A stretch of DNA of 64,000 bases from Lepiota brunneoincarnata (taxonomy: Eukaryota; Basidiomycota; Agaricomycetes; Agaricales; Agaricaceae), in assembly GCA_023014365.1 (NCBI GenBank), contig JAEBUN010000006.1, positions 1,488,001 through 1,552,000 on the forward strand, written 5' to 3'. This document shows, piece after piece, positions 1,779 to 64,000 of this stretch. Position numbers and translations under genes: made by a program. The notes under the pieces were generated by a model. The model was not told the DNA's origin. It searched no databases and saw only the letters and a list, made by a program, of their open reading frames with translations. Every line of letters begins with the position of its first letter. Within the stretch, counting starts at the first letter, position 1.

Positions 1779-3024
1779 TGAAAAGCAGATGAAACGTTTG
1801 TGGGTTTTAATATAGATAAATGGCTTGTTCTCACTAAGCTTAGTCAAAATTTGATAAGCTTAAGTTAATACAAGTAGTATGAGATAGATAATGAACAGTT
1901 TCGTCTTTTAGGGTGTTCTGGGGGTGCATTCTGACAGCAAAATTCAAGAGAATAGTGTTTTAAGAGGTTAACAAACAGCTGTTGAAGTTATCTTAGCCAT
2001 ATGGTGCAACAGTGAAAGGACAATCCCTGTCAATTCAAAGCGCAGGGTCTCTAGTCTCTGGTCTCTGGTCTCTGAACTCTGTTCTCTGTCTCTGTCTCTG
2101 GGTTGGTTGACGACCGAAGAAATCACACTTAACGATGCACACTAAGTAGTCCTCTGAAACCATTCTTAATCATGGCTCACAGACTTGCATGTGGAAGTGG
2201 GGGTGAGACCTCTCCTTCTCCACGAACAAGCGCAACTGTATTTATATTGTTTAGATACATGCAAGAGATAGTAAATATGAAATAGAAAACAATAAGCTTA
2301 ATTGTTATAGGTACTGCAGAATATTTTGGAAGGTTTGGCAGCATTTCTACCTTGCCCTGGGTTATGGGTTTTTCTCTGATTGACAAATGGCAATCCAGCC
2401 AGACATGTTCTGTGCTCATCTGCATTATTCTGCATCCACGCAAGCGTGTTAAGCCTTTGGATCAATTATGATTGGAATGTATGGTGTATGGACAATCCCT
2501 TGATCCATTGTAATTAATCTCAGTCAGGCAATATGCCGAGGTGCCGGGACCCACAAAGCACTTGTTAATTATGAGTCTTTGATATGTCTAGGGTTTTGGG
2601 CATCGGGTGTCACCTCCCGAATGTTGGATGTTCCGTTCTGTGGTCTGGTCATCATTATTGGGCTCGCTATGGGCATAATACACCTGCGACAGCCGCTATG
2701 TACATTCTTTAGGTTCCAACAAATCCGAGTTCATCAGAAAACTGCTCATAAGGTTTCTGGATGTGACCAGAGTATACTCGATAGGCTATGTAGAGTCCGG
2801 AATCCCTTCAGAGAGCATTCTGATAGCTTGGTTCACTAAGCTTAGTGTTAATGAGCTGGTTTGAACACTTCTGAGGCTTGAATATCCTTAGTTCGGTCGA
2901 ACTGGCTACTATGGGACATAGTGCCAATCCTCTATAGGGTTCTTTAATGATATAGCCAATGATTCTATGTAGAGAATCGTACTGGAGTATGGAATTCATG
3001 TATAGGCGTGAAATCAGTGTATCA
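1779..3024 (-). repeat. solo-LTR-like repeat, family X copy A
   Basis: A 1246-bp repeat with TG...CA ends, present as copies A, B (6427-7682) and C (50540-51824). On its own strand it starts TGATAC and ends TTTTCA. It interrupts gypsy-A pol. The flanks are CCGC upstream and CCAC downstream (plus strand 3025-3028 and 1775-1778), a 4-bp target duplication with one CpG-type change. Inside are a TATA-like AATATAAATAC, a CAGAGA-rich microsatellite and two palindromes around CTAAGCTTAG. No coding region is recognised. I read it as a solo LTR because no second LTR or internal region accompanies any copy. Confidence 0.75.
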
Positions 3025-3028
3025 GCGG

Positions 3029-3973
3029 ATGTACCCTTTTCAGATGTTTTCATCTATGAATTCTTTTAGTGCTTTTTCTTCGGCAGGTGCTACTTGATAG
3101 GGTTTCATCGATTTGCTTTGAATGTTGGCTTTAGTTTGATTCATGATCAAACATTCTTGATGGTGGGAATCGTTCAGAGGCTTTTTTATTGAATATTTCA
3201 GCCCATCGGGCAAATCTCCAAGGGATCTTGGGTGTTTCCTTGTTTGATTCTGGTTGTTTTCCTTTTTGGTTTGCCGATTTCGTTGGGTTATGTTGCTCAT
3301 TGTGGAGCATTGTGGCATGTGTCGCTTTGGCGTTTACTTCTAATGGGGTTAGAAGCATTGGGTTCATTTCTCTTTCTAAAGAGAAGGTGTCAAGGTCAAC
3401 ATTTGACAGGTTGACATATTCTTCAGGGTTTTCCTTGGGTTGAGAGCTTTTTCCAGCCATTATGTCCATGGTGATGGAGTTGAGTTCGACAGGTCGTTGT
3501 AGGGTTCTGAGGAGTTTAGAAAAGTCCTGGTGGTCGATTTGGGGTTTCCAAGAGAATGTCTTGGTCTTCCAGTTGATGTCAGGATTGTATTGTTCCAACC
3601 AGGGAAATCCAATGATGAGATCTTTCTCACCAGTGTTTGTGATGTATGCTTCTAGCATGCAGTCTCTTCCATTGATGATGGTTCTGATTTTGATGTATTC
3701 ATGGATCTTGCCATGTTGATTGTCAGTTTCATCAATGTTGCTGAGGGGGATTGGTTGGTCCAGCCATTTTGTTTGATAACCATGTCATTCAACAACTTTG
3801 TGGGAGATAAAGTTCCCTTGGGCTCCTGAGTCTATCAGGGTGGTGATGGCCACAGGTTTTGATGTCCATTCACTCCAAATCTTGATGGGTAAGAAAAGGG
3901 ATTGTTTATTTGGGGACAGTCGTAATTGTACAGAGTTTATTGAGAAAATGTCCTTTTGGGAGTGAGAGTACAA
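3029..3973 (-). pseudogene. gypsy-A aspartic protease and linker to reverse transcriptase
   Basis: The retropepsin active-site motif is visible as LIDSGAQGNFI (near 3810-3850), followed by a conserved downstream block DLIIGFPWLEQYNPDINW (about 3560-3620). The linker runs to KEFIDENI just before solo LTR-A, where the pol frame is cut between GYIR and PSKSP. Rejoining the two sides across the insertion gives the usual gypsy sequence block before the RT fingers. In-frame stops (for example TGA in place of Trp before KGYIR) mark it as dead. Confidence 0.8.
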
Positions 3974-3989
3974 AATGTCCTTCTGAGTT

Positions 3990-4783
3990 CTGGAATGTGC
4001 AGGGGCACATCAATCAACAGCATTCCTTTTTAAAAATCCTGGAATGGACGCATCTCCAGATCCTCAGCTAGCATGGAGTGGAGCTCTTGCTGGAGTTCAG
4101 GGTCAAGGTCATTGACCATTTGGCACATCTGAGATGCAACTTCTCTTCTGCAACAGCAAGGGAGTACTTGCATTGTGGTGATTGCTGGGCGTTCTGGTTT
4201 GGGAATCTGGGACAGGTATTTTGTTGTCCAGGGAAAGGATGATTGGGGTTTCTCATGGGGTGAGGGGATTGGTATGCATTCCTGGGAAGCGTCTAGCTGG
4301 TAGTGGTTGTGGGCATTTACTGACCCAGTGATCTTTAGCTCCGCATTGGAAGCATTCCTGGTTCTGATATGATTTCATTTGTTGTCCAGTGACAATGGCA
4401 TCTAGCTCCAATGGTTCTTGAACAGAGTCTTCTTTGGCGTATTCCGGTTGGGGTATTTTGGGGTAAGGATCTTCAAATCCTTCTTCTATGGTGGCATGGT
4501 CTATTTCCATGGCATGTGGGTCTCGTGGGGTGAAACATGGAGCGTTGCTCCTTTGATAGAATTGTGCATAAGGCACATTGTTGTTTGGACAGCTTGGTCC
4601 ATGGTTGGGTTGGTATTGGTTCCTTTGGGGGAACATGTTCCTGGGGGTGCCATAGAGGGCATTTATTTGGCAGAAATTGTTGTCGAGTTTATTGGCTTGG
4701 GTGTACCAAGTGGCGATAGTTGTTGGAGGATTTTCCGATTTGTCAATCTTCATGGCAATTCAGCGATTGATTGCCTTGTGGTA
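3990..4783 (-). pseudogene. gypsy-A gag, C-terminal part with CCHC zinc knuckle
   Basis: This is the continuation of gag downstream of the mariner insertion. A classic retroviral-type zinc knuckle, CFQCGAKDHWVSKC (C-X2-C-X4-H-X4-C), sits at 4313-4354 and would bind nucleic acid in the nucleocapsid. Before it is the spacer with TWYTQANKLD, typical of gypsy gag between capsid and nucleocapsid. The zinc-binding residues are all intact although the flanking frame has stops. Nothing indicates a host gene here. Confidence 0.85.
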
Positions 4784-5023: not shown

Positions 5024-6040
5024 CTAGTACTTAGAGTAGCCTCCCCTGGCTTTGAGTACAGCTGCTACTCTTCTAGACATACTTTCAATTAACTTCTGAC
5101 ACTCAGAAGCTGGAATAGCATCCCACTCCTTCTCTACCCTCTGCCACAACTCCTCCATACCCTTGGGGCGAGATTCATACTCTCCCAGCTTTCTTTTCAC
5201 ATAATCCCATAAGTAGTCAATGAGATTGAGGTCAGGTGACTATGCTGGCCAGGTTAGGAGCCTAAAATGATTTTTTTGAAACCATTCTTTGGCCAATGTA
5301 CTCTTGTGTTTGGGGTCATTATCTTGCTGGAGGATAATATCTCAGGGTTTAAGCTTGTACCACCAGAGACTCTTCTTAAAATCTTCCTCCAAAATTTGCA
5401 CAAACAACTCTGCATCCATCCTTCCATCAATCCTCACTACATAGCCTGGGCCATCCCACAGCATACAACCCCAAACCATCACTGATCCTCCTCCATATTT
5501 CAGAGTTCCCTTGACCAATCTTTCACTAAGCCCCTCTCCCTTCTTTTTCCATCCCCACTTCCTCCCATCTGACCCCAAATAATTAATTTTGATCTTGTCA
5601 GACCATACAACCAGCTTCCAGTCCTCCACAGTCTAATGCTGGTGTGTCAGAGCAAAATCCAGCCTAGCCCTCCTATGCTTGTCAAAGAGTAAAGGCTTTT
5701 TTTGCTTGACTACAGCCTTCATTCCTGTCTGTTTGAGATGCCTTGCCACAGTCTGCAAAGAGACTGATGTCCCAATGATGGAAGCAAGAGATTTGGCTAT
5801 ATCTACAGCAGTTTTAGCCTTGCCAGCAGAGATAAGATAGATAGTATGCCAGATATTAGTGGTAGAGAGTTTTGAAGGACATCCTCCAAGTGATTTGGTA
5901 AGGCTGGAACAATTTTTAGAGGCTAGCCTGGATATGGTACTGTGCCCAACACCAGTAATTGCCTCAATTTTAGTATAGGAATGATGAGAATTTAGCATAG
6001 AGAAAATGGTTTGCTTTAGAGTAGAAGATAATGGCTTCAT
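5024..6040 (-). pseudogene. Tc1-family transposase, inactivated
   Basis: From ATG at 6038-6040 to the stop at 5024-5026 the frame spans 338 codons, the usual Tc1 transposase length. The N-terminus has the bipartite helix-turn-helix (KIEAITGVGHSTISRL, then VSLQTVARHLKQTG). The catalytic domain shows VVWSDK (first Asp), LQQDNDPKH (second Asp) and SPDLNLIDYLW (third acidic position). Three stops interrupt the same frame: TAG after LTHQH near 5630, TGA after LKP near 5340, and TAG in place of Gln in WPAQSPDLN near 5240. The copy cannot make transposase, although its ends look mobilisable in trans. Confidence 0.92.
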
Positions 6041-6179
6041 AGTAGGTAGGGGGGTTGAGAATGATGGGACATGGCTGTCAGCACATCTATTTATATGTCA
6101 AAGACACGTGGTCACATGACCTTGTTGATTCACAATCAACAGAGTCATGTGATTGCTTGGATTAGTATCAAAAATTACT

Positions 6180-6389
6180 ATTGACAAAACTGTTCCAATG
6201 ACTTAAAATGCTTACAAAATTCATAATTGCCTCATTTGATAATATTACATAACACGACTTTGCAGGGTCAGATACGACATATTTGGCTATGTTTTTTAAT
6301 ATATTCACAAATTTAGCTATTTTATTTATTGAGCTATTACTACTTTAAGTCAATAGTACAAAACATTGGAACAGTTTTGTAGGTCACTG
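6180..6389 (-). repeat. right terminal inverted repeat of the mariner element
   Basis: Partner of 4784-4993. It ends GGTCACTG followed by the TA duplication. The inner block is again an inverted copy of the outer CAAAACTGTTCCAATG. Confidence 0.9.
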
Positions 6390-6426
6390 TATAGATTGAT
6401 TAGAGTGCGATCTTCATTGAGTCTGG

Positions 6427-7682
6427 TGATATGCCGATTTCACGCCTATACATGAATTCCGTACTCCAGAATGATTCTCTACATAAAATCATTGGCTATA
6501 TCATTAAAGAACCCTATAAACCCTATAGAGGATTGGTACTATGTCCTGTAGTAGCCAGTTCAGCCAAACTAAGGATATTCAAGCCTTGGAAGTGTTCAAA
6601 CCAGCTCATTATCACTAAGCTTAGTGAACCAAGCTATCAGAACACTCTCCGAAGGGATTCCAGACTCTACATAGCCTATTGAGTATACTCTGGTCACATC
6701 CAGGGACCTTATGAGCAGTTTTCTGATGAACTCGGATTTGTTGGAACCTAAAGAATGTACATAGCAGCTGTCGCAGGTGTATTACACCCATAGCAAGCCC
6801 AATAATGATGACCGGACCACGGAATGGAATGCCCAATGTTCAGGAGGTGACACCTGATGCCCAAAACCCTAGACATATCAAAGACTCATAATTAACAAGT
6901 GCTTTGTGGGTCCCGGCACCTCAGCATATTGCCTGACTGAGATTAATTACAATGGATCAAGGGATTGTCCATACACCATACATTCCAATCATAATTGATC
7001 CAAAGGCTTAACGCACTCATGTGGATGCAGAATAATGCAGATGAGCATGGAACACGTCTGGCTGGATTGCCATTCGTCAATCAGAGAAAAACCCATAACC
7101 CAGGGCAAGGTAAAAATGCTGCTGAACCTTCCAAAATATTCTGCAGTACCTGTAACAATTAAGCTTATTGTTTTCTATTTCATATTTACTATCTCTTGCA
7201 TGTATCTAAACAATATAAATACAGTCACACTTGTTCATGGAGAAAAAAGAGGTCTCACCCCCGCTTCCACATGCAAGTCTGTGAGCCGTGATTAAGAATG
7301 GTTTCAGAGGACTACTTAGTGTGTGTTGTTAAGTGTGATTTCTTCAGTCGTCGACCAACCCAGAGACAGAGACAGAGAACAGAGTTCAAAGACCAGAGAC
7401 CAGAGACTAGAGACCCTGCGCTTTGAATTGACAGGAATTGTCCTTTCACTGTTGCACCGTACAGCTAAGATAACTTCAATGGCTGTTTGTTAACCTCTAA
7501 AAACACTATTCTCTTGAATTTTGCTGTCAGAATGCACCCCCAGAACACCCTAAAAGACGAAACTGTTCATTATCTATCTCATACTACTTGTATTAACTTA
7601 AGCTTATCAAATTTTGACTAAGCTTAGTGAGAACAAGCCATTTATCTATATTAAAACCCACAAACGTTTCCACCACTTTTCA
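6427..7682 (+). repeat. solo-LTR-like repeat, family X copy B
   Basis: Plus-oriented 1256-bp copy of the family described at 1779-3024. It starts TGATATG and ends TTTTCA. The flanks are CTGG (6423-6426) and CCGG (7683-7686), again a 4-bp duplication differing by one CpG transition. It sits in gypsy-A gag: the amino acids before and after (ELIHQSG and DSMKIALINL) join in frame once it is removed. Landmarks: palindrome CACTAAGCTTAGTG at 6613-6626, TATA-like box near 7213, CAGAGA repeats at 7362-7410, second palindrome at 7617-7628. Confidence 0.8.
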
Positions 7683-7686
7683 CCGG

Positions 7687-8701
7687 ATTGATGGATGAGT
7701 TCCTTGAACTGAGAATTGAATTCAGTCATTGGTTTACCTGCTTGATGCAGGGTTTGAAGTCTGGTATGCATGTATGCATGTTTGTCTGCCGGGGTGAAGT
7801 CGGCTCTGAGCCAGGCAGTGAAGTTGTCCCATGACTCCATGGCTATGGGTTGCCCTTGTTGGGTTTGGGCGTTTCTCTCATGGAGGTATTGTCTAGCCCA
7901 GGCTCAAGCATCTCCTGATTGCATTGTTGAAAGGACAAATAGAGTCCTAGCGAGGTCGGTGTTGTACGTGGTTGCATTGGCGAGCACGTAAACTTTGCAT
8001 TGGAAGATCCAATCTTCAAAGAGTCTTCTAGTTCCATCAAAGGCAATGGGTTTGAGGAGTCCTAAATCCTTTGGGGTCTGTGCAGCAGCCATTATTTGTA
8101 GTTGTCTGGGTGGTGGCGGTGGTGGTGGTGTTGGGGGTTGTATTGGTCATAGGGGAGGAGCCGGTAGGGCTAAGGGTACTGTTGGTGCAGGTAGTGTGGG
8201 TGGTTGTGGATTGGGATCCAATTGGTTGTCATCTGTTATATAGACATCGGAGTCGTTATCTGCTGGGGGAGTTCTTCCTTGATTTACTGCATATTCATGG
8301 TGTGTGAGTAAATTTTCTTCTGATTTGGAAAGTTCTCTTGGTTGCTTGAGAGCGTATTCAAGTTTTTGAAGTTTGTAATCGTTTAATGGGTCTACTTTGG
8401 CATGATATTCTTCGGCTTGTTTGCGTCTTCTTTCTTCTTGTTCATAATGTTCTTTTAGTTCCTTTTCATGTTGTATTCTTTGTCGTTCTGCTAGTTCTTC
8501 AGCAAAACTTGTTTGAGTACATGTTGATGTACTTGGAGTGGGTGAGTCAAATGGAGATGGGGGATAGAATGGAAATGGTGTCTGAGTGGGGATAGGGTTT
8601 CTTCTGGGATCTGGGTTTTGGGTTCCTGATCCTGAGATTCTACTTCTCGATTTGGGGGGAGGTGATGGAGTTTCTCAGGCCAAGAACTTCTTTGGAGGCA
8701 T
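7687..8701 (-). pseudogene. gypsy-A gag, N-terminal part
   Basis: The gag frame starts at the ATG at 8699-8701 (MPPKKFLA...) and meets a TGA at codon 9. It continues through a Pro/Ser/Thr-rich N-terminus, an acidic and glutamine-rich charged stretch (EELAERQRIQHEKELKEHYE), and a capsid-like helical region. Recognisable capsid blocks are FEDWIFQCKVYVLAN (about 7990-8040) and NFTAWLRADFTPAD (about 7780-7830), typical of basidiomycete Ty3 gag. Solo LTR-B breaks the frame at 7682/7683. The frame resumes after it at 6392-6426 and after the mariner element at 4783. Several stops and small frame changes make it a relic. Confidence 0.8.
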
Positions 8702-9513
8702 GGTGGCAGTTGTCTAGCAATCGATTATTGCTAGAAGAATGAAGAATTGGGTTGTGATGATGGATATCCCTGAATACAGGTTCCACGATCTAACGACACA
8801 GCAGTGACAAGGGCACATGATATGTTCAAGTTCTAAGGTGATGATTTGGTAGGTGATGAGGGTGGTGGTGGAGGTGAAGACGAAAATGAGTAGGTAAGCC
8901 AGGTCTTCTGGTGGGGAGAGGTTGAGGGACATAGCGATGGCTACACAGAGGGGTGGTTTTCTTTTGCATGTCGTTTTGAATGACCAGGGTACCTCGACAT
9001 GTTCAGTATGTTGGCAGAGTAAAGCAGAGTAGAGGGCAAGCAAGAGATAAGCAGCAAGATATCTTAGTGTTTTGTTACCCGGGTTAGGGGTTCGCTCTTG
9101 AGTAGCATGGGGTTCAACACAGGATGTCTATACAGACTTGGTCCTGTCCTACTGAGTGTGACTTGAAGACAATGGAGCACTATAGTCCAGCCGGTTTAGA
9201 GGCAAAGAGTTATAGGAGGCAAGAACTTTATAACACTAAGATAAGGATACAAGGTATTGTACTATATCCTTATATACTTCTAAGTGTGGCTGTACTCCCA
9301 CTATAATAGTCTGGACCAGAGTAGCTATGAGTCAGAGATACATAAGAAACATGAGGCATATGGTAATAATAGTCCTTCTGATGTACACTACTGATGGTTT
9401 CATAGTGACATGGGAATGTAGCTAAAAGTAACCATCCTTCTGATAAGACTTCTGATAACAGTAATGTTACCATTTTCCCTTTAGTTTTCCTGCCCACCTA
9501 TTTTTACCTATCA
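8702..9513 (-). other. gypsy-A leader and probable 5' LTR, ends unresolved
   Basis: No host gene is seen. On the minus strand a TATA-like GTATATAAGG lies near 9270, upstream of the gag start by a plausible LTR-plus-leader distance. A possible LTR start is TGTGATAGG at about 9513. A hairpin (CTAGCAAT/ATTGCTAG) lies near 8712-8732, just before gag. I found no convincing primer-binding site, so the LTR call is tentative. Confidence 0.4.
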
Positions 9514-9668
9514 CATGCTACTGCCTGCTGTCACCACCTGTCTTTATTTAATTATCACATGCCACCACCCATCTATAGTTAGCTTTCCCTAGCCTGTGAT
9601 TTCCACTTGTTTGCATGTGATTCTTTCCTTTATCACATGCCAGTACTCCTCAGTAGTATATATAGACC
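9511..9668 (+). promoter_or_regulatory. cluster of TCACATGC sites before a TATA box
   Basis: TCACATGC occurs at 9511, 9554 and 9633 and once inverted (GCATGTGA at 9613), followed by AGTATATATAGACC (9655-9668). The spacing and the TATA box suggest a plus-strand promoter or LTR U3. The downstream region (9750-9990) contains only a short frame with Gly/Pro and Ser/Asp repeats (about 9840-9900), not a recognised gene. Confidence 0.4.
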
Positions 9669-55453: not shown

Positions 55454-56155
55454 TGAAGAGAACTCAACTCTTCAGCATGTGAAAGGCACCGAAACAAAAC
55501 CGAAACACAATCAAAACACAATCAAAACAGCGCTAACACAAACAAACAAAGGGGCAAGTGTGGTTGGCGGAACAACCACTGGGCTTCGAAAACTGGGAAA
55601 GACAAGATAATTGAGAGAGAGAGAGAAAGAGATCGAGAGGGAGTTTCTGGGTTGTAAATTGACTGCCAAGCTCATAAGTGAGCTCAGAACTTTATATACA
55701 AGCAAAATATTTTACTGACTATGTTTTCTGTACCGAAACAGACCGAAAAATTCAGATATAATTATGCTAGGACAAATCTGGGGATAGTGAAGGTGAAACA
55801 GGGGAAGAATGAGAAGTTTTCAGTGGCTACAAGAACAGATATAAGGAAAGCTGAAGGGAACTAGTGAATGGGGTGGTGTGCAAAGCTCAGAAAGATCTAA
55901 ATAAGGGAGAAAAACTTATGCTATGGTTCAAGTTCAGGGAAAGGAATAGAAAAGTAGTGAAAATTTATTTGGTAGGGAATGTAAGAGGTTTCAAGTGAAA
56001 GGGATATGTTGCAAAATGATAACGGCTTTGTTCAGCTGGGCACTCCGAGTTTCTTGATCCAAGTTCGGATTTTGGGTTCCGAGTTCAGGTTCCGAGTCCT
56101 ACGAGAGGTGGCATAGGGCAGCCTTTGCAGGTGTAGCTGCTTGCCCACCTCTACA
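55454..56155 (-). repeat. gypsy-B 5' LTR
   Basis: 702 bp, same length as 46550-47251. In the first ~130 bp (plus coordinates) nearly every CpG of the other LTR appears here as CpA or TpG. A TATA-like box (minus strand) is near 55690-55701. Its right end truncates the HNH gene. Confidence 0.9.
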
Positions 56156-56865
56156 GCATCATATGAATGGCACGCACCATTAAGAACGCAACATCTTCAC
56201 CCAACACCCTGGTGAGTGTAGTTATTAAGCAGAAAACCATTCCGGACATTGTCAATGTCATGTATAACATCGGCTTTGGTTGGGTCTCAACTGCTGGTGC
56301 TGGGTATAGGTTGAGATATACTATTGCCATGACAGTGGTGAGTAAAGACGGACCAGGGCTAATAATGACGTACCACATTGCCCTTACTGTGTGCAATGAG
56401 GTGCACTGCATCGCAAAACACCTCTGGAAACTTCGACAAGATGCACTGCTTTCCATCCCACTCCACAACCTTGTCATAGAACTGGACCCTCCGAGTGGTG
56501 GGCTCACTAGAAGTAATGTGTGTCTGTGCCATATCAGGATCCACTGGAAACATCCTTCGCCTCTCCTCATTGCTGATGTGATAGTATAAGACAATGGATT
56601 TCGTTGGAAGGCAAGCATCATAATCCAGGGGATCTGGTGAATCTTGACTTGTAGAAAGAATGCCTTCCGTTCCAGTGACAACTCCAATGGCATAGCGGAT
56701 CCATTTGTATGGCCTGTGTGAGAGCTGGAGAGTACCAAGGACTTTGAGTGAGAAGACGAGGCAACAGATCCAACGCCAATGGGTGGGGTCAATGTTAAGG
56801 TCTGCACCAGGTGCCACGGTGAGAGGTAACAAAGCGTAGACGTCGATGTGAGGAGTTGGAGCCAT
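56156..56865 (-). pseudogene. HNH-nuclease-domain protein, 3' end removed by an LTR
   Basis: ATG 56863-56865 (MAPTPHIDVYALLPL...). The conserved Agaricomycete HNH-like block is seen: VVEWDGKQCILSKFPEVFCD followed by AVHLIAHSKGN, then after an intron YISTYTQH, and in a shifted frame VIHDIDNVRNGFLLNNYTH, then LGEDVAFLMVRAIHM. The conserved HLIAHSKG and NVRNGFLLN motifs are those of HNH proteins abundant in mushroom genomes; biochemical role unknown. Two frame changes occur and the stop codon (CTG-TAG) is supplied by the LTR end. A 283-codon shadow frame over the same DNA is not believed. Confidence 0.78.
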
Positions 56866-57114
56866 GATGGTAAGTTGGTTCGAAAAGTGTTGTGTTTCAT
56901 ATCTGCGAATGACCCCACAAGAGTTCTCATGGTGCACTGGCCTCCAGGACCGTCTTTCCCAATCACCATGGCTAGTCTCAATAAAAGGAAAAGTTCTGTC
57001 ATAGGAAATCCTTCAGCCGAGAAATAATTAGCTCACGACATAACGCATACCCAAATGTACGGGAAATGACTAATGAATGTTTGGCTCATGTCTCGTTTTA
57101 GTCAAAACATTGAG

Positions 57115-59731: not shown

Positions 59732-61223
59732 TCAGTCTCCCCCATCCAATCCTGATTTACTAACAGCACTCTCATCATCACCAATGCCACCCTCGTTAGC
59801 ATCAGTTGAATCTGGGGCCGAGTTCTGGGCCTGAGTATCTATGAGCTTGAGGGGGACAGAGGAGTCAATGCCAAGGGACCTGCAAATCTCTTTACATCGG
59901 TGGTCCCTGATGAAGGCATTGATCCCCTCATGTCCGAAATCGCCAACACCCGAGTCATTGTTCTAGGAGGTGAGGATGTGATGCAAAAATTATGTTGAGA
60001 TGGTTGGCTCACCTGCTGGTTGTATGTGTCATCGGATCAAAGAGCATCAGGCCATCATGGCCTTTGATCTGGGCTGGACTGCCTAACAAGAACATGAGTC
60101 AGGGAGATGTCAAATACAAAGGGGAAACCTGTACCTTGAAGATCAGCGAACAAGAGACAGTTATTACTATGACCAAAAGCAAAATGGGTAAAGGCATAGA
60201 TTGTCAGGCTGCTTAGATCACGGTATGATGATGGGTAACTCAAGGTACCACTCCACCAGGTCACAGTGCTCAGACGGCATCTCTCAACAAGCCACATAAT
60301 CCCATATGGTTCACCTGTGTAGCTTTCTGTGCCAGATGCCGGACTTGGAGATTGGAATGTGTCCTCTTGTAACAAAAAGACATCTGCAAATTGAATATCT
60401 GTAGCAATAACCATGACAATGACATGTCATGAGCTTAACTGAATAAAGACAATAAGTAGTAGACTCACAAGTATCAACCGTTGTACCATTGTTTGCACAG
60501 CATGAGAAAAATGCCGATAGGAACCAATTTCCTTGGTATAAGCGGCAGCATTCAGCTTGAATCTGAGTATTATGTTCACTAATATCAATGCCATCAGAAC
60601 CCAGGACCAAGGACTCAGATTCAGCAGCCTTGTTGCTCATCCGAAAGAACCATTTCGCGACAAATTGACCAGCATGAGATGGATTGGAAAGGATCAACTA
60701 TTTAATAGCTATGAGTCATCAAGTCACCAAGTCCAAATCAGGGCTCTGTACCTCAAAAATGGCCTTCATGGTTCCCTTCGCAAATGGGGTATCATGCAGT
60801 AGGCCTGTTATCGTGCCAGGGAGCTCACTGAAGGTGATAGTTCCATCATCTTCTTTAACTGAGCAAGCAATCTTCTTGAATTGGACTGAGGTTATTTTCT
60901 AGATCGTGTGGGGGCTAGGACGTTGAGTAGGCAGCCAGAATAATGAGCCAATTGCCTTGCTGTCACCAAGTCCATGGCCGATTGAACCTGAAATAATCAG
61001 AGTGAGCCTACTTGAAATTTATGCCAAAGGTGTAGGGCAAACTGCTTGTAGTCCGTCATTGTTTGCTAATCACACTTTGACCAGCAGATAGGGTAATCGA
61101 ATCAGAGTGCAGACACCTGTGTGTTCTGTTGACTGGTGCATGATTGGGTTCATAGTTCTCCTCATCAGTGTGCCGCTCTGATTTGTAGCGTTGTTCATAC
61201 TAGATAGAGTGTATCAGCATTTC
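59732..61223 (-). pseudogene. alpha-type protein kinase, 5' end cut by an LTR
   Basis: Alpha-kinases (MHCK/EEF2K type) phosphorylate Ser/Thr in helical contexts and are expanded in mushrooms. Blocks in order: QRYKSERHTDEENYEP, then after an intron KITSVQFKKIACSVKEDDGT, TPFAKGTMKA, FVAKWFFR (nucleotide-binding Lys), ECCRLYQGNWFLSAFF, FADVFLLQ, SPASGTE, WLVERCRLSTVTWWSGTLS, FTHFAFGHSNNCLLFADLQG (catalytic loop), LMLFDPMTHT, GVGDFGHEGINAFIRDHRCK (zinc-binding C-terminus). Last exon 59732-59962; preceding exon ends at 60013. A 1-nt phase mismatch appears at that last junction. The 5' end (start codon and N-terminal residues) is missing because the gypsy-C LTR begins at 61224. Confidence 0.85.
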
Positions 61224-61921
61224 TGTTATGATCCGTGCTCCTTCTGTATCCGAGGATAACTGGAGACGGCCTTCAATCACTCTACAAGGTGTCCGAGACG
61301 GTTGGCCTTATAGAGCTTAGTGGATCGCGCTCAATGAGATAACGAGGGAAGACGCCAAGTTAAGGCAGAGAGGTAAACGACCGCTGTTAACAAGATTAAA
61401 GCTTGAGGCTTTAATCTCTACTTGTACAGGCCTTATATACCTATGAGATGCTATATACTCGTTATAGGTTACTTGGCTGTTCTACTGGTCGTGCGCAGTC
61501 CTGACCATGATGCACATCCTGGCTGATGGCATCCTAGCGTTATTTATATTACAATGAGTCAGTACTCTCGCTACTGCTGTGCGATGTTCCATCGCTTTCC
61601 TCTGACTCATAATCTCCTTCTCCCGATTGTATCTCCATGGAGTCTTCTCCATTCTCGCTCTCCATTCTCTCGGTGCTTCCATCCGTATCGGAGGTTGGAT
61701 CGGTTGATCCATGGTTATCTTCCTCGTCCTCGGGGTATTCCAATATATCCTCCAAGGTTATCTCCATTCCTGCTTCTCTCGCCAGGTCCTGCATGGCGGT
61801 GTAGTATTCCCCTTCCTCGTCTTCGTATTCTTGTGCCCGTAGTTGGTCTGTAGTCTCCTGTACCCATCTTGTAAAGTCGAACAGTAATTCTTGTTCCTCC
61901 CGGTCTGGACTGTTCATAACA
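61224..61921 (-). repeat. gypsy-C 3' LTR
   Basis: 698 bp, on the minus strand TGTTATGAAC...GATCATAACA. TATA-like GTATATAAGG is at about 61432-61441. The last 122 codons of the 523-codon frame occupy its U3. The flanking host sequence after the LTR (minus strand) is GAAAT; the other copy of the duplication is outside the window. Confidence 0.93.
61394..61416 (-). other. hairpin in the gypsy-C LTR just after the TATA box
   Basis: Perfect 9-bp stem GATTAAAGC/GCTTTAATC with a 5-nt loop, about 20-40 bp downstream of the TATA-like box. It should fall at or near the start of the transcript (R region). The same hairpin is intact in the solo LTR at 49141-49163. Confidence 0.6.
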
Positions 61922-63120
61922 TTATCCCCTTCGTAAGGTCTGATGTCCTCATCAGACATATCCTCAGTATAGTCCGACAGGCTCTCCTGTAATGTTTGAT
62001 TCGGCGATGGGGTCCCAGTCGAAGTATGGGTCGGGTTCTGGGGAGTCGCTTCGGTAGCTTGGTGGTCTGGGGATGGCGGGTCTTGGGTGAGGTCGATGAC
62101 GATGGGTTCTCTGGAGTGAATGGTGGCGGGTGTGCCGAAGGATCGATTCAGGAAGTCGGTGGCTTCCACTAGCAGATGTGGTGGTGGCGTTGGTGGTCGG
62201 AACGACGATGGGGGCATTTTGAATTCGGGTGCGGAGGGGTCTGGCTGAAGCGGGGCGCTGCTCGGTGCTTGCAACAATGTGTCGAATATTGTTGTTTGTG
62301 GTTTCGCGTGTGAGGGATCGAGCTCTGCTTGGTATTCCTCGTGGGCGGCGATACAGGCCAGGTACCATACTTGCGGGTTGATGCTGGTAAGGGTTTCTCT
62401 CGCAGTGCTTCTCGTAATGGCCTGGGGCAATCTTTCGACAATATCGACATTGGTAGCGCGGGCATCCTGCTTTGATATGGCCGAATCGACGGCAGCAATT
62501 GCAGCGAGTTCGGGTGGTGGATAGGTGAGTGGTGGTAGTCCCGATGGGGGCGTCATTAGAAGCAGATATAGCTTGTACAACACTTGATGGTTGGTTACTC
62601 GTATCCACCATGGGAGGGTTGGAAGGTTGGGTGGTGGTCCCGATAGGTAGGATAGGGCGGTCCTGACTTCCGCTTCCATTGCTCGGGCTTGGGATCGGAC
62701 TCTCGAACGGGAATTCGGTGAGAGCGGTTGATAGCATGGCAGAAATGGTATTGCGGTCCTGTTCCTCTGTTGCGCTAGAAAGAATAGTGGCGCATAGTTT
62801 TTCGAATTCTGTTGCTCGGTCGTGGACGAGGCGCTTGTGATACAGAAGAGCAGTAAATGTCTTCCAGCAGGTGTCGACCAGGGGTACCATCGCTGGACTG
62901 CGTTTAAGACGGGTTCCGGTAATATGAAAGGGAACTTCGTGTAAAAGGATGGATCGTATCTCGGGTTGGTTGGAGGGAAGGAAGGTATGCCGGATGATAT
63001 AAGGACTGTTGGTCCTGTCTGGTTGGTTGTCAGCGGTATCGGTGGCAGGGTTAGGTTGGCTATTTCCTTCGACGCGGTTCGCCAGGGATATGATTCTTTC
63101 CCGGATGAGAAGGCGTCCAT
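61549..63120 (-). CDS. gypsy-C ORF3, 523 aa, extends into the LTR
   Basis: A single open frame of 523 codons from ATG 63118-63120. It overlaps pol (63060-63120) and ORF2 (61964-63120) in a third frame. Residues 135-300 look like ordinary folded protein (MEAEVRTALSYLSG, ELAAIAAVDSAISKQDARA, ETLTSINPQVWYLACIAAHE), so it is not obviously a shadow. Near residue 340 is PIVIDLTQD, which fits a SUMO-interaction motif. Residues 402-523 (FDFTRWVQETTDQLRAQEYE, MEITLEDILEYPEDEED, then a Ser/Glu/Asp-rich tail) are encoded inside LTR U3. The same 122 codons are open in the solo LTR at 48.6 kb. Function unknown; acidic C-terminus and SIM-like motif are observations only. Confidence 0.75.
   Translation of the reverse strand: MDAFSSGKESYPWRTASKEIANLTLPPIPLTTNQTGPTVLISSGIPSFPPTNPRYDPSFYTKFPFILPEPVLNAVQRWYPWSTPAGRHLLLFCITSASSTTEQQNSKNYAPLFFLAQQRNRTAIPFLPCYQPLSPNSRSRVRSQARAMEAEVRTALSYLSGPPPNLPTLPWWIRVTNHQVLYKLYLLLMTPPSGLPPLTYPPPELAAIAAVDSAISKQDARATNVDIVERLPQAITRSTARETLTSINPQVWYLACIAAHEEYQAELDPSHAKPQTTIFDTLLQAPSSAPLQPDPSAPEFKMPPSSFRPPTPPPHLLVEATDFLNRSFGTPATIHSREPIVIDLTQDPPSPDHQATEATPQNPTHTSTGTPSPNQTLQESLSDYTEDMSDEDIRPYEGDNVMNSPDREEQELLFDFTRWVQETTDQLRAQEYEDEEGEYYTAMQDLAREAGMEITLEDILEYPEDEEDNHGSTDPTSDTDGSTERMESENGEDSMEIQSGEGDYESEESDGTSHSSSESTDSL
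61922..61932 (-). other. gypsy-C polypurine tract
   Basis: GAAGGGGATAA directly upstream of the 3' LTR on the minus strand, as expected for plus-strand priming. It lies inside the 523-codon frame (encoding YEGDN). Confidence 0.75.
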
Positions 63121-63178
63121 CGTTGTCTGGCTCTGGGAGGTCTGGAGTGGTTGCTCGAGTGTTGGGTGGTTGGGTCAT
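61964..63178 (-). CDS. gypsy-C ORF2, 404 aa zinc-knuckle protein downstream of integrase
   Basis: Open from ATG 63176-63178 to a stop at 61964, overlapping the end of pol by 119 bp in another frame. The first 165 residues contain helical, gag-like sequence (LVDTCWKTFTALLYHKRLVH, RATEFEKLCATILSSATEEQ, NTISAMLSTALTEFPFE). Two zinc knuckles follow: CNCCRRFGHIKAGC (C226, C229, H234, C239; canonical CX2CX4HX4C) and CRYCRKIAPGHYEKHC (C244, C247, H254, C259; CX2CX6HX4C). The rest is basic and Ser/Arg/Pro-rich. Position after integrase corresponds to an env slot, but no signal peptide or membrane segment is present. Likely a nucleic-acid-binding accessory protein; alternatively a displaced gag. Confidence 0.82.
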   Translation of the reverse strand: MTQPPNTRATTPDLPEPDNDGRLLIRERIISLANRVEGNSQPNPATDTADNQPDRTNSPYIIRHTFLPSNQPEIRSILLHEVPFHITGTRLKRSPAMVPLVDTCWKTFTALLYHKRLVHDRATEFEKLCATILSSATEEQDRNTISAMLSTALTEFPFESPIPSPSNGSGSQDRPILPIGTTTQPSNPPMVDTSNQPSSVVQAISASNDAPIGTTTTHLSTTRTRCNCCRRFGHIKAGCPRYQCRYCRKIAPGHYEKHCERNPYQHQPASMVPGLYRRPRGIPSRARSLTRETTNNNIRHIVASTEQRPASARPLRTRIQNAPIVVPTTNATTTSASGSHRLPESILRHTRHHSLQRTHRHRPHPRPAIPRPPSYRSDSPEPDPYFDWDPIAESNITGEPVGLY

Positions 63179-64000
63179 TGGTGGGGTTGTCTAGCTCGTG
63201 GGCCCTTTTATATTCTTCAATGACTTCCTTGGCGTTCTCCAGGTTTGCTTCTGGCTCCCAGGAATCCTCGGTGGGAAGGTATCCTTTCCATCTGACTAGG
63301 AATTGATACTTGTTCCGGAATTTTCTGTGGCGCAGTATTGACTCGACCTCGTATTCTTCTTCTCCATTTACAAGGTCGGGTGGTGGGGCTGTGTTGTATT
63401 CCCCATGTGTGTCGTTCTCTTCTGCAGGCATTAGGAGGCTCGCATGAAACTTGTTGTGGATCTTCCATTTGATGGGTAATTTTAGTTCGTAGGTAACAGG
63501 TCCGAGTTTTCTTGTTATGGTGAAGGGACCTTCTCGGCGTTGGGCCAGTTTCTTTGAGGCGTACTGAATTGGGAGGTTGCGGTTGTCGAGCCAAACCTTC
63601 TGTCCAACTTTTAGATTGATATCTGGCCGGTTATATCTTGCAGCCATTTTTAGTCTGGCTTGTTCATGCGCAGCTTGGGCTTCTTGGCGTATCTTGGCGA
63701 GGTATTTAAACTTCTCTCCTATTGCTGGAATGTTCGTTGGCTCCTCGGAGGTCGGAAATCCTTTGGGGCTTGATCCATAGAGGAGTTCAAATGGGGTATG
63801 TTGGTGTTCGGCATGTGTTTTCGAGTTGTGGACGTATTCCAGGAGTGGGAGTGCCTTTACCCATTTGTTCGGGTTCGATGAGCAATAGATGCCAAGGTAG
63901 AGTTCTATTTCTTGATTGAATCGCTCTGTTTGTCCGTCTGTCTGGGGGTGGTAGGCGGTAGAGAGTGCTTGTTCGATTCCGAGTTGTTTGTAGAATTCTT
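63060..64000 (-). CDS. gypsy-C integrase C-terminus with chromodomain (partial)
   Basis: Open from the window edge to the stop at 63060. The integrase core end is visible (YHPQTDGQTERFNQEIE, LYLGIYCSSNPNKW, LLEYVHNSKTHAEH, PFELLYGSSPKG), then the GPY/F-type module (REGPFTITRKLGPVTYELKL, HNKFHASLLMPAEEND). A chromodomain follows at 63198-63353 (YEVESILRHRKFRNKYQFLV, RWKGYLPTEDSWEPEANLEN). Chromodomains of chromoviruses bind modified histone tails and guide insertion into heterochromatin. All expected aromatic cage positions (Y, W, W/D context) are seen. No stops, so potentially functional. Catalytic Asp residues lie mainly outside the window. Confidence 0.92.
   Translation of the reverse strand, partial: EFYKQLGIEQALSTAYHPQTDGQTERFNQEIELYLGIYCSSNPNKWVKALPLLEYVHNSKTHAEHQHTPFELLYGSSPKGFPTSEEPTNIPAIGEKFKYLAKIRQEAQAAHEQARLKMAARYNRPDINLKVGQKVWLDNRNLPIQYASKKLAQRREGPFTITRKLGPVTYELKLPIKWKIHNKFHASLLMPAEENDTHGEYNTAPPPDLVNGEEEYEVESILRHRKFRNKYQFLVRWKGYLPTEDSWEPEANLENAKEVIEEYKRAHELDNPTNDPTTQHSSNHSRPPRARQRWTPSHPGKNHIPGEPRRRK

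Follow-up and report, generated by a model that had tools for sequence, protein, structure and literature searches.

Whether one stretch of retrotransposon DNA can encode two proteins in different frames is the question raised by a locus in Lepiota brunneoincarnata (contig JAEBUN010000006.1). In the window, the whole 64,000-nucleotide stretch that was analyzed (positions 1,488,001 to 1,552,000 of the contig), a young Ty3/gypsy element is followed, behind its pol gene, by two long open reading frames (ORFs) on the minus strand. ORF2 (404 codons, 61964..63178) starts within the end of pol, and ORF3 (523 codons, 61549..63120) is read in the +1 frame relative to it. The initial annotation described an overlap of about 1.16 kb and proposed either genuine overprinting or a frameshift product. 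The two frames do share 1,157 bp (61964..63120), the first part of which also belongs to the end of pol. Variation among copies of the element points, with a probability of roughly 0.7, to an overprinted accessory gene pair between pol and the 3′ long terminal repeat (LTR) of a recently active Ty3/gypsy chromovirus. The earlier observation was right and understated: the location of the ORF3 C-terminus in the 3′ LTR, and an in-frame stop in the pol of the window copy, had gone unnoted.

Purifying selection on both frames in young copies

Copies were searched for in the 55.6-Mb genome (95 contigs), where a chromodomain 32-mer, with up to three mismatches allowed, matched 194 sites (106 + 88). 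The young set, which leans toward the best-matching copies, combined 30 of the best DNA matches (40 of 987 candidates were scored) with eight from a second search. Removal of L001 and L031 (the window copy) and of L032-L034 (duplicates of L002, L003, and L005) from L001-L038 left 33 others, which together with the window copy gave n=34. Element coordinates (x) refer to the reverse complement of L031, a native 10-kb stretch holding the whole element, and correspond to window position 70801-x. Each variant, defined by site and base, was scored once against the window copy as silent (S) or non-silent (N), first in ORF2 and then in ORF3. Expected counts were derived from base- and CpG-specific rates, and results were alike when the CpG term was omitted. 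The main test covered x=7744-8837, past the end of pol, and excluded the 117 bp shared with pol (eight variants).

Changes altering both proteins were strongly depleted (NN, 10 observed/38.4 expected), whereas changes silent in one frame were not (NS 45/39.6, SN 30/35.7; SS 5/0.8). Selection on ORF3 alone would have lowered NN and SN jointly, and selection on ORF2 alone NN and NS, and neither was seen. Comparison of NN with SN revealed constraint on ORF2 (p=5.1e-4), and comparison of NN with NS revealed constraint on ORF3 (p=1.8e-6). Variants that occurred in more than one copy, and were thus probably inherited, included a single NN change (38.4 expected), compared to 16 NS, 13 SN, and 4 SS (ORF2 p=5.8e-4, ORF3 p=1.7e-4), and ORF3 was also constrained among singletons alone (p=0.0011). 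By ORF2 codon position the ratios were 1.19, 0.33, and 0.80, compared to 0.49, 0.30, and 2.40 in pol. The young copies thus show statistically that the same DNA is under purifying selection in both frames, and for the young family the case for double coding is strong.

The controls behaved as expected of a working test. Constraint was found for pol (p=5e-31) and not for its shadow frames (p=0.24, 0.74), and the third frame of the overlap was unconstrained when paired with either ORF2 (p=1) or ORF3 (p=0.99). ORF3 was still constrained when paired with the third frame (p=0.011). Past the ORF2 stop (x=8838-9249), the ORF2 frame showed no constraint (p=0.55) and ORF3 did (p=0.0027).

The initial annotation regarded stop codons occurring freely in one frame as the sign of a shadow. 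Each frame carried an in-frame stop in only 1/34 young copies. In longer copy lists, which were ranked by protein score and so favor intact frames, ORF3 was stop-free in 79/82 copies scored (the other three with one TGA) and ORF2 in 92/103 (the other 11 with one or two TGA). Synonymous shuffling of ORF2 codons produced a mean of 5.7 stops in the ORF3 frame, compared to none observed (0/2000 shuffles reached zero), and shuffling of ORF3 codons produced a mean of 6.6 in the ORF2 frame, compared to none observed (1/2000 shuffles). The shuffles make the case look stronger than it is: stops are also scarcer than in the corresponding shuffles for the third frame and for the shadow frames of pol, and a frame over gag is equally open. 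Openness was accordingly rejected as proof, and the substitution tests bear the weight.

The gag frame is the best control for this point. It spans 601 codons (x=2185-3990, outside the window), was stop-free in the compared portion of 14/15 other copies, and had 0 stops, compared to 9.8 in synonymous shuffles. As a candidate second overprint it was rejected: among 46 variants in 16 copies it showed no detectable selection (p=0.75), compared to p=1.7e-6 for gag itself. The element thus supplies its own control, an open frame on which no selection was detected.

Distribution of constraint along the overlap and in older copies

Silent change in one frame, scaled to silent change in pol, served as a test of the other frame. 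ORF3-silent change fell to 0.47 (p=7e-7) and ORF2-silent change to 0.37 (p=2e-9). Silent change in either frame is thus held down as coding by the other would require, which was the check proposed with the initial annotation. Four slices were compared: R1 (62785-63057), R2 (62512-62784), R3 (62239-62511), and R4 (61967-62238). The ORF3-silent ratios, which test ORF2, were 0.42, 1.06, 0.11, and 0.40 from R1 to R4, and returned to 0.86 in the ORF3 tail, where a single frame remains. The ORF2-silent ratios, which test ORF3, were 0.08, 0.32, 0.32, and 0.75. The pattern was unchanged when CpG sites were dropped, and the values of 0.08 and 0.11 are far outside the range of pol windows of the same size. 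R2 corresponds to a Pro/Ser/Thr-rich linker of ORF2, and R3, with the strongest suppression of ORF3-silent change, to its zinc knuckles. Constraint is thus segregated, with ORF3 tightest in the 5′ half, ORF2 tightest in the zinc-knuckle half, and both constrained in places. The N-terminal part of ORF3 largely faces a loose stretch of ORF2, and the ORF2 knuckles face a more tolerant stretch of ORF3.

This distribution bears on whether the two frames are instead read as one protein. A single fusion that crosses frames by frameshifting or splicing would be expected to concentrate constraint in one frame at a time, and a fusion of the ORF3 N-terminus to the ORF2 C-terminus agrees in part with strongest constraint on ORF3 upstream and on ORF2 downstream; one CCCTTTC heptamer also lies in the right register at x=7869. 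However, both frames are constrained in R1 (0.42, 0.08) and in R3 (0.11, 0.32), which argues against either fusion, the ORF3 tail requires the ORF3 frame to be read to its end, and no GTRNGT splice donor lies between the 5′ LTR and ORF2. The opposite fusion, ORF2 N-terminus to ORF3 C-terminus by +1 frameshift, which had been the initial annotation's second proposal, would leave only ORF2 constrained upstream and only ORF3 downstream, and the data are nearly the reverse. A fusion in either direction is accordingly considered quite improbable.

The ORF3 tail provides evidence that is free of overlap. The ORF2 stop lies 42 bp short of the 3′ LTR, while ORF3 ends inside the LTR, upstream of TATATAAGG (x=9362), a motif that probably marks the LTR promoter; as a result, ORF3 is complete only at the 3′ end of the element. 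By the LTR limits, the acidic C-terminal tail (123 codons plus stop, 61549..61921, minus strand) lies in the U3 region of the 3′ LTR. The tail remained recognizable in diverged LTRs (79-87% identical), and one LTR with 78.7% identity translates as VMNSPDKEELEQIFDYTRQVQETIDQLWAQEYEDKEKEYY... in the ORF3 frame, stop-free to the tail end. Of 14 diverged copies seen in part, 13 of them LTRs and one the L051 end, nine had no in-frame stop in the tail and five (L045, L046, L047, L049, and L051) had one, some of the copies also with gaps or frame changes. Across the 13 diverged LTRs, non-silent change in the tail was depleted relative to silent change (p=0.004), compared to p=0.44 for the same frame in the non-coding LTR end, a control taken from one LTR only (L003). 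Twelve of the LTR ends (L039-L050) showed no internal family sequence before the LTR; they are thus solo or 5′ LTRs, and were used for the ORF3 tail only. For the young copies, the continuation of ORF3 as single-coding sequence inside U3 is shown statistically. Since U3 is coding, divergence between LTRs of this family cannot be assumed to be neutral, with consequences for the dating of insertions from LTRs.

These results also address whether ORF2 is the sole protein and ORF3 a shadow that reaches the LTR by chance. ORF2 has the recognizable domain of the pair, its zinc knuckles, but the depletion of NN relative to NS (p=2e-6), the drop of ORF2-silent change to 0.08 in R1, and a tail constrained by itself past the ORF2 stop, both in the young copies and across the 13 diverged LTRs, make this explanation very hard to sustain.

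Older copies gave a less decisive picture. Twelve copies that are 88-90% identical were compared, one of which (L059) is missing the initial 307 bp of the region under test. Indels in the overlap were few (none in 8/12), and the stops per copy numbered 2-8 for ORF2, 0-4 for ORF3, and 9-16 for the third frame, the ORF2 count including its own terminal stop, L059 being partial, and insertions being omitted from the reading. The 37 fixed differences between the young and the 12 older copies (NN 9/14.9, SN 12/10.0, NS 15/11.9, SS 1/0.2) leaned in the same direction as the young variants. Rare variants among the old copies, for which neutral decay is expected, gave p=0.22 and 0.098. In old copy L051, pol was constrained and the ORF3 tail strongly so (p=5.7e-7), and in L052, which covers part of the overlap, ORF3 was constrained (p=0.017). 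The old copies are compatible with double coding and do not prove it by themselves.

Several observations weigh against double coding, most of them bearing on ORF2. Among singletons alone, constraint on ORF2 reached only p=0.059. Paired with the third frame, ORF2 appeared unconstrained (p=0.61), a result that can be put down to suppression of ORF2-silent change by ORF3, in which case constraint on ORF2 becomes visible only when ORF3 is held fixed. Little or no constraint was detected for ORF2 in R2 and for ORF3 in R4, and because pol windows of the same size ranged from 0.48 to 1.61, slice ratios near 0.4 are indecisive alone. The fixed differences were not significant (ORF2 p=0.087, ORF3 p=0.057), and less so without CpG changes (0.11 and 0.12) or without C>T/G>A changes (0.53 and 0.28). 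The overlap was unconstrained in L051 (0.40, 0.38), as was ORF2 in L052 (p=0.33). AlphaFold, run on ORF3 alone and on a three-row ORF2 alignment, gave no usable model (mean predicted local distance difference test scores, 40.7 and 37.6). No homologue outside the family was found in Pfam, a protein database (best 7996 candidates scored), PDB sequences, or IMG/VR viral contigs, searches that can all miss distant relatives; the exceptions were P0001, a 99% identical fragment of ORF2, and a weak match of the knuckles to AIR2 in the PDB sequences (E=0.009).

Some of these observations would be explained if ORF3, consisting of its N-terminal part and the LTR-encoded acidic tail, were the sole protein, and ORF2 a shadow kept open by composition. 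Constraint on ORF3 is stronger in the 5′ half (omega-like ratio 0.10, within the pol range of 0.06-0.28), its tail is recognizable in diverged LTRs, long shadow frames occur elsewhere in the element, such as that over gag, and ORF2 is unconstrained in L051 and L052. Against this stand the depletion of NN relative to SN (p=5e-4; p=6e-4 for shared variants), the reduction of ORF3-silent change to 0.11 in the knuckle slice, and the retention of the zinc-coordinating cysteines and histidines in 34/34 young copies, 32 of which have identical knuckles. An ORF3-only element is therefore judged unlikely, and constraint on both frames remains the preferred explanation.

Protein features and proposed expression and function

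ORF2 is basic (isoelectric point, pI, 9.7) and consists of an N-terminal part with helices predicted at low confidence, a linker, two CCHC zinc knuckles, and a tail. The knuckles (residues 226-259; 62402..62503, minus strand) had been noted at this position in the initial annotation and are evident from the sequence. ORF3 is acidic (pI 4.4; tail pI 4.1). Neither protein has a Pfam match or a transmembrane-like segment (top 19-residue hydropathy 0.85 for ORF2 and 0.94 for ORF3), which speaks against an env gene of the errantivirus type.

How two proteins might be made is suggested by signals around the start codons. A candidate internal promoter, TATAAAAG (63205..63212, minus strand; x=7589), precedes the ORF2 ATG by 34 nt. 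No second TATAWA occurs on the sense strand from one LTR to the other, and the sequence is unchanged in 33/33 other young copies as well as in L051, an old copy. The only ATGs within x=7510-7681 are those of ORF2 (CCACCAATGAC) and ORF3 (ACAACGATGGA), 58 nt apart; by the Kozak rule we take the first to be in weak and the second in strong context. GTRNGT does not occur from the 5′ LTR to ORF2, nor CTRAY close to the starts of the ORFs. On the basis of the ATG contexts, TATAAAAG, and the lack of these splicing motifs, the combination of an internal promoter and leaky scanning is favored over splicing. A short 3′ transcript would most likely be initiated at TATAAAAG, and some ribosomes would bypass the weak ORF2 ATG and initiate at the strong ORF3 ATG downstream, so that two separate proteins would be translated from the two frames. 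The 927-nt leader before gag (x=2034-2960) is free of ATGs, compared to 8.3 expected, and the first ATG is that of gag.

Alternatively, ORF3 might be made as an extension of pol, by -1 frameshifting or fusion, rather than from its own ATG. ORF3 lies in the -1 frame of pol, and an in-register G_GGA_AAG heptamer at x=7699 is retained in 32/33 other young copies, but it is missing from old copy L051, and the RNA structure of the region where pol, ORF2, and ORF3 meet is not significant (z=-0.49). A heptamer with a final G is also a poor eukaryotic slip site. In two copies, L035 and L036, 1-nt insertions that differ from each other but share one position (x of about 7646) join pol to ORF3 in open frames of 828 and 769 codons. 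These fusions favor this explanation, but the two copies were fetched for their odd frame and are not a fair sample. Production of ORF3 through pol thus seems a minor possibility, and initiation at the ORF3 ATG is preferred.

A basic protein with two knuckles makes RNA binding a natural guess, and ORF2 may bind the element's RNA. By analogy with retroviral accessory proteins and with CERV of Cer1, ORF2 and the acidic ORF3 might act jointly in RNA export, packaging, or integration. Put together, these features would describe an env-free accessory module of retroviral style that evolved by overprinting and is expressed from an internal promoter. Its zinc-knuckle protein would bind RNA and be joined by an acidic partner whose tail is encoded in the LTR, and U3 would at once code for protein, flank a promoter, and form an integration end. 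This fuller picture is offered tentatively and is less likely than not. If ORF2 does act on the element's RNA, it would be a fungal counterpart of accessory functions such as those of Rev, Tat, or CERV.

The source element and related systems

The element is bounded by two LTRs of 698 bp that are 100% identical (x=1336-2033 and 8880-9577). The 3′ LTR (TGTTATG...CATAACA; 61224..61921, minus strand) is followed by the target site duplication GAAAT (61219..61223, minus strand), whose second copy lies beyond the window; GAAAT flanks the element on both sides. A purine-rich stretch, GAAGGGGATAA (61922..61932, minus strand), adjoins the 3′ LTR inside ORF3 and from its position is likely the polypurine tract. 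The stop of pol (63060) lies upstream of this tract, 1.1 kb before the LTR. The C-terminal part of pol (63060..63998, minus strand), comprising integrase, a Tf2-type SH3 domain, and a chromodomain, matched Pfam Chromo (3.6e-16) and SH3_Tf2-1 (8.2e-15); it overlaps both ORFs at its end and extends past the window edge. In the complete copy, whose pol was searched as two pieces, Pfam recognized Retrotrans_gag, zf-CCHC, RVP_2, RVT_1, RT_RNaseH, Integrase_H2C2, rve, and Chromo, giving the order gag (with CCHC), protease, reverse transcriptase, RNase H, integrase, and chromodomain, and then ORF2/ORF3. By this domain content the element is classified as a Ty3/gypsy chromovirus, and its TG..CA ends and 5-bp target duplication agree with that class. 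The young Ty3/gypsy element of the initial annotation is thus borne out. Among the best 120 of 1010 integrase relatives, identity was 62% for Agaricus bisporus (with 72% of the query covered), 49% for Leucocoprinus, and 50% for Trametes, which points to an agaricomycete host. No Rfam match was found over 61200-64000.

Overlapping genes are commonplace in viruses. Human immunodeficiency virus (HIV) nef, mouse mammary tumor virus (MMTV) sag, and foamy virus bet are accessory genes between pol/env and the LTR, with ends in U3 and overlapping accessory frames, and foamy virus and MMTV have an internal promoter. Like nef and sag, ORF3 has its 3′ end in the U3 of the 3′ LTR (61549-61921 within 61224-61921); unlike nef, sag, and bet, the pair resides in a fungal host, has no env-like transmembrane segment, and showed no sequence relation to them. 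In Botrytis, Boty and BcGypsy1 are one element. It is, like the present one, a fungal gypsy element with an extra ORF, brtn (PMC8365987, PMC7264820), but the extra ORF of Boty is described as antisense (PMC7264820).

The slot behind pol is itself known. Sense and antisense extra ORFs occur at this place in other LTR elements (PMC7264820, PMC5408684), and additional ORFs are also treated in PMC11963269. Plant aORF-3S (PMC7264820) and bdelloid rotifer ORF3s (PMC5408684) likewise lie between pol and the 3′ LTR, are kept in most copies, and are mostly without assigned function; unlike ORF2 and ORF3, they are env-like, GDSL, DEDDy, or antisense, and the portions consulted describe no two overlapping constrained frames. 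A coding frame that reaches into the 3′ LTR is found in CRM-clade plant chromoviruses, but there it is gag-pol with a chromodomain/CR motif (PMC3605345), whereas here a separate accessory ORF crosses into the LTR. CERV of Cer1 from C. elegans is an extra LTR-element protein that acts on genomic RNA, the role proposed for ORF2, but it is made from a spliced mRNA (PMC10309623), and here no splice donor consensus was found. In overlapping HIV-1 genes, each nucleotide serves mostly one gene, and constrained stretches face tolerant ones, much as in the slices above; that lentiviral overlap was tested by mutation (PMC9119678), whereas the present one is deduced from copy variation. For the Podospora element crapaud, the available text reports two ORFs and variation concentrated in U3, and does not mention a coding U3 (PMC10787394), and the term "additional ORF" was not found in the accessible text of a survey of fungal LTR elements (PMC3248453). 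Among the top-ranked results of searches in an open-access library, neither a plain LTR retrotransposon with an overlapping pair and measured selection on both frames nor a fungal element of such layout was found. The unusual part is thus the overlap of frames and its extension into the LTR, rather than the place behind pol. With about 194 near-identical copies and older ones beside them, the birth and upkeep of such an overlap become measurable within one genome.

Some further features of the copies were observed. The pol of the window copy carries an in-frame stop, located outside the window and absent from the compared portion of pol in the 33 other copies; for this reason the window copy is probably not autonomous. 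Silent variation along pol (x=5534-7444) drops from 1.6 to 0.5 of its mean, perhaps through gene conversion or recombination between copies. Fragments of relatives, 68-91% identical, adjoin young copies in L028 (5294-5777), L014 (5277-5567), and L036 (2-371). Elsewhere in the window, another pair of overlapping minus-strand frames spans 56151-57032 (293 codons) and 56359-57012 (217 codons).

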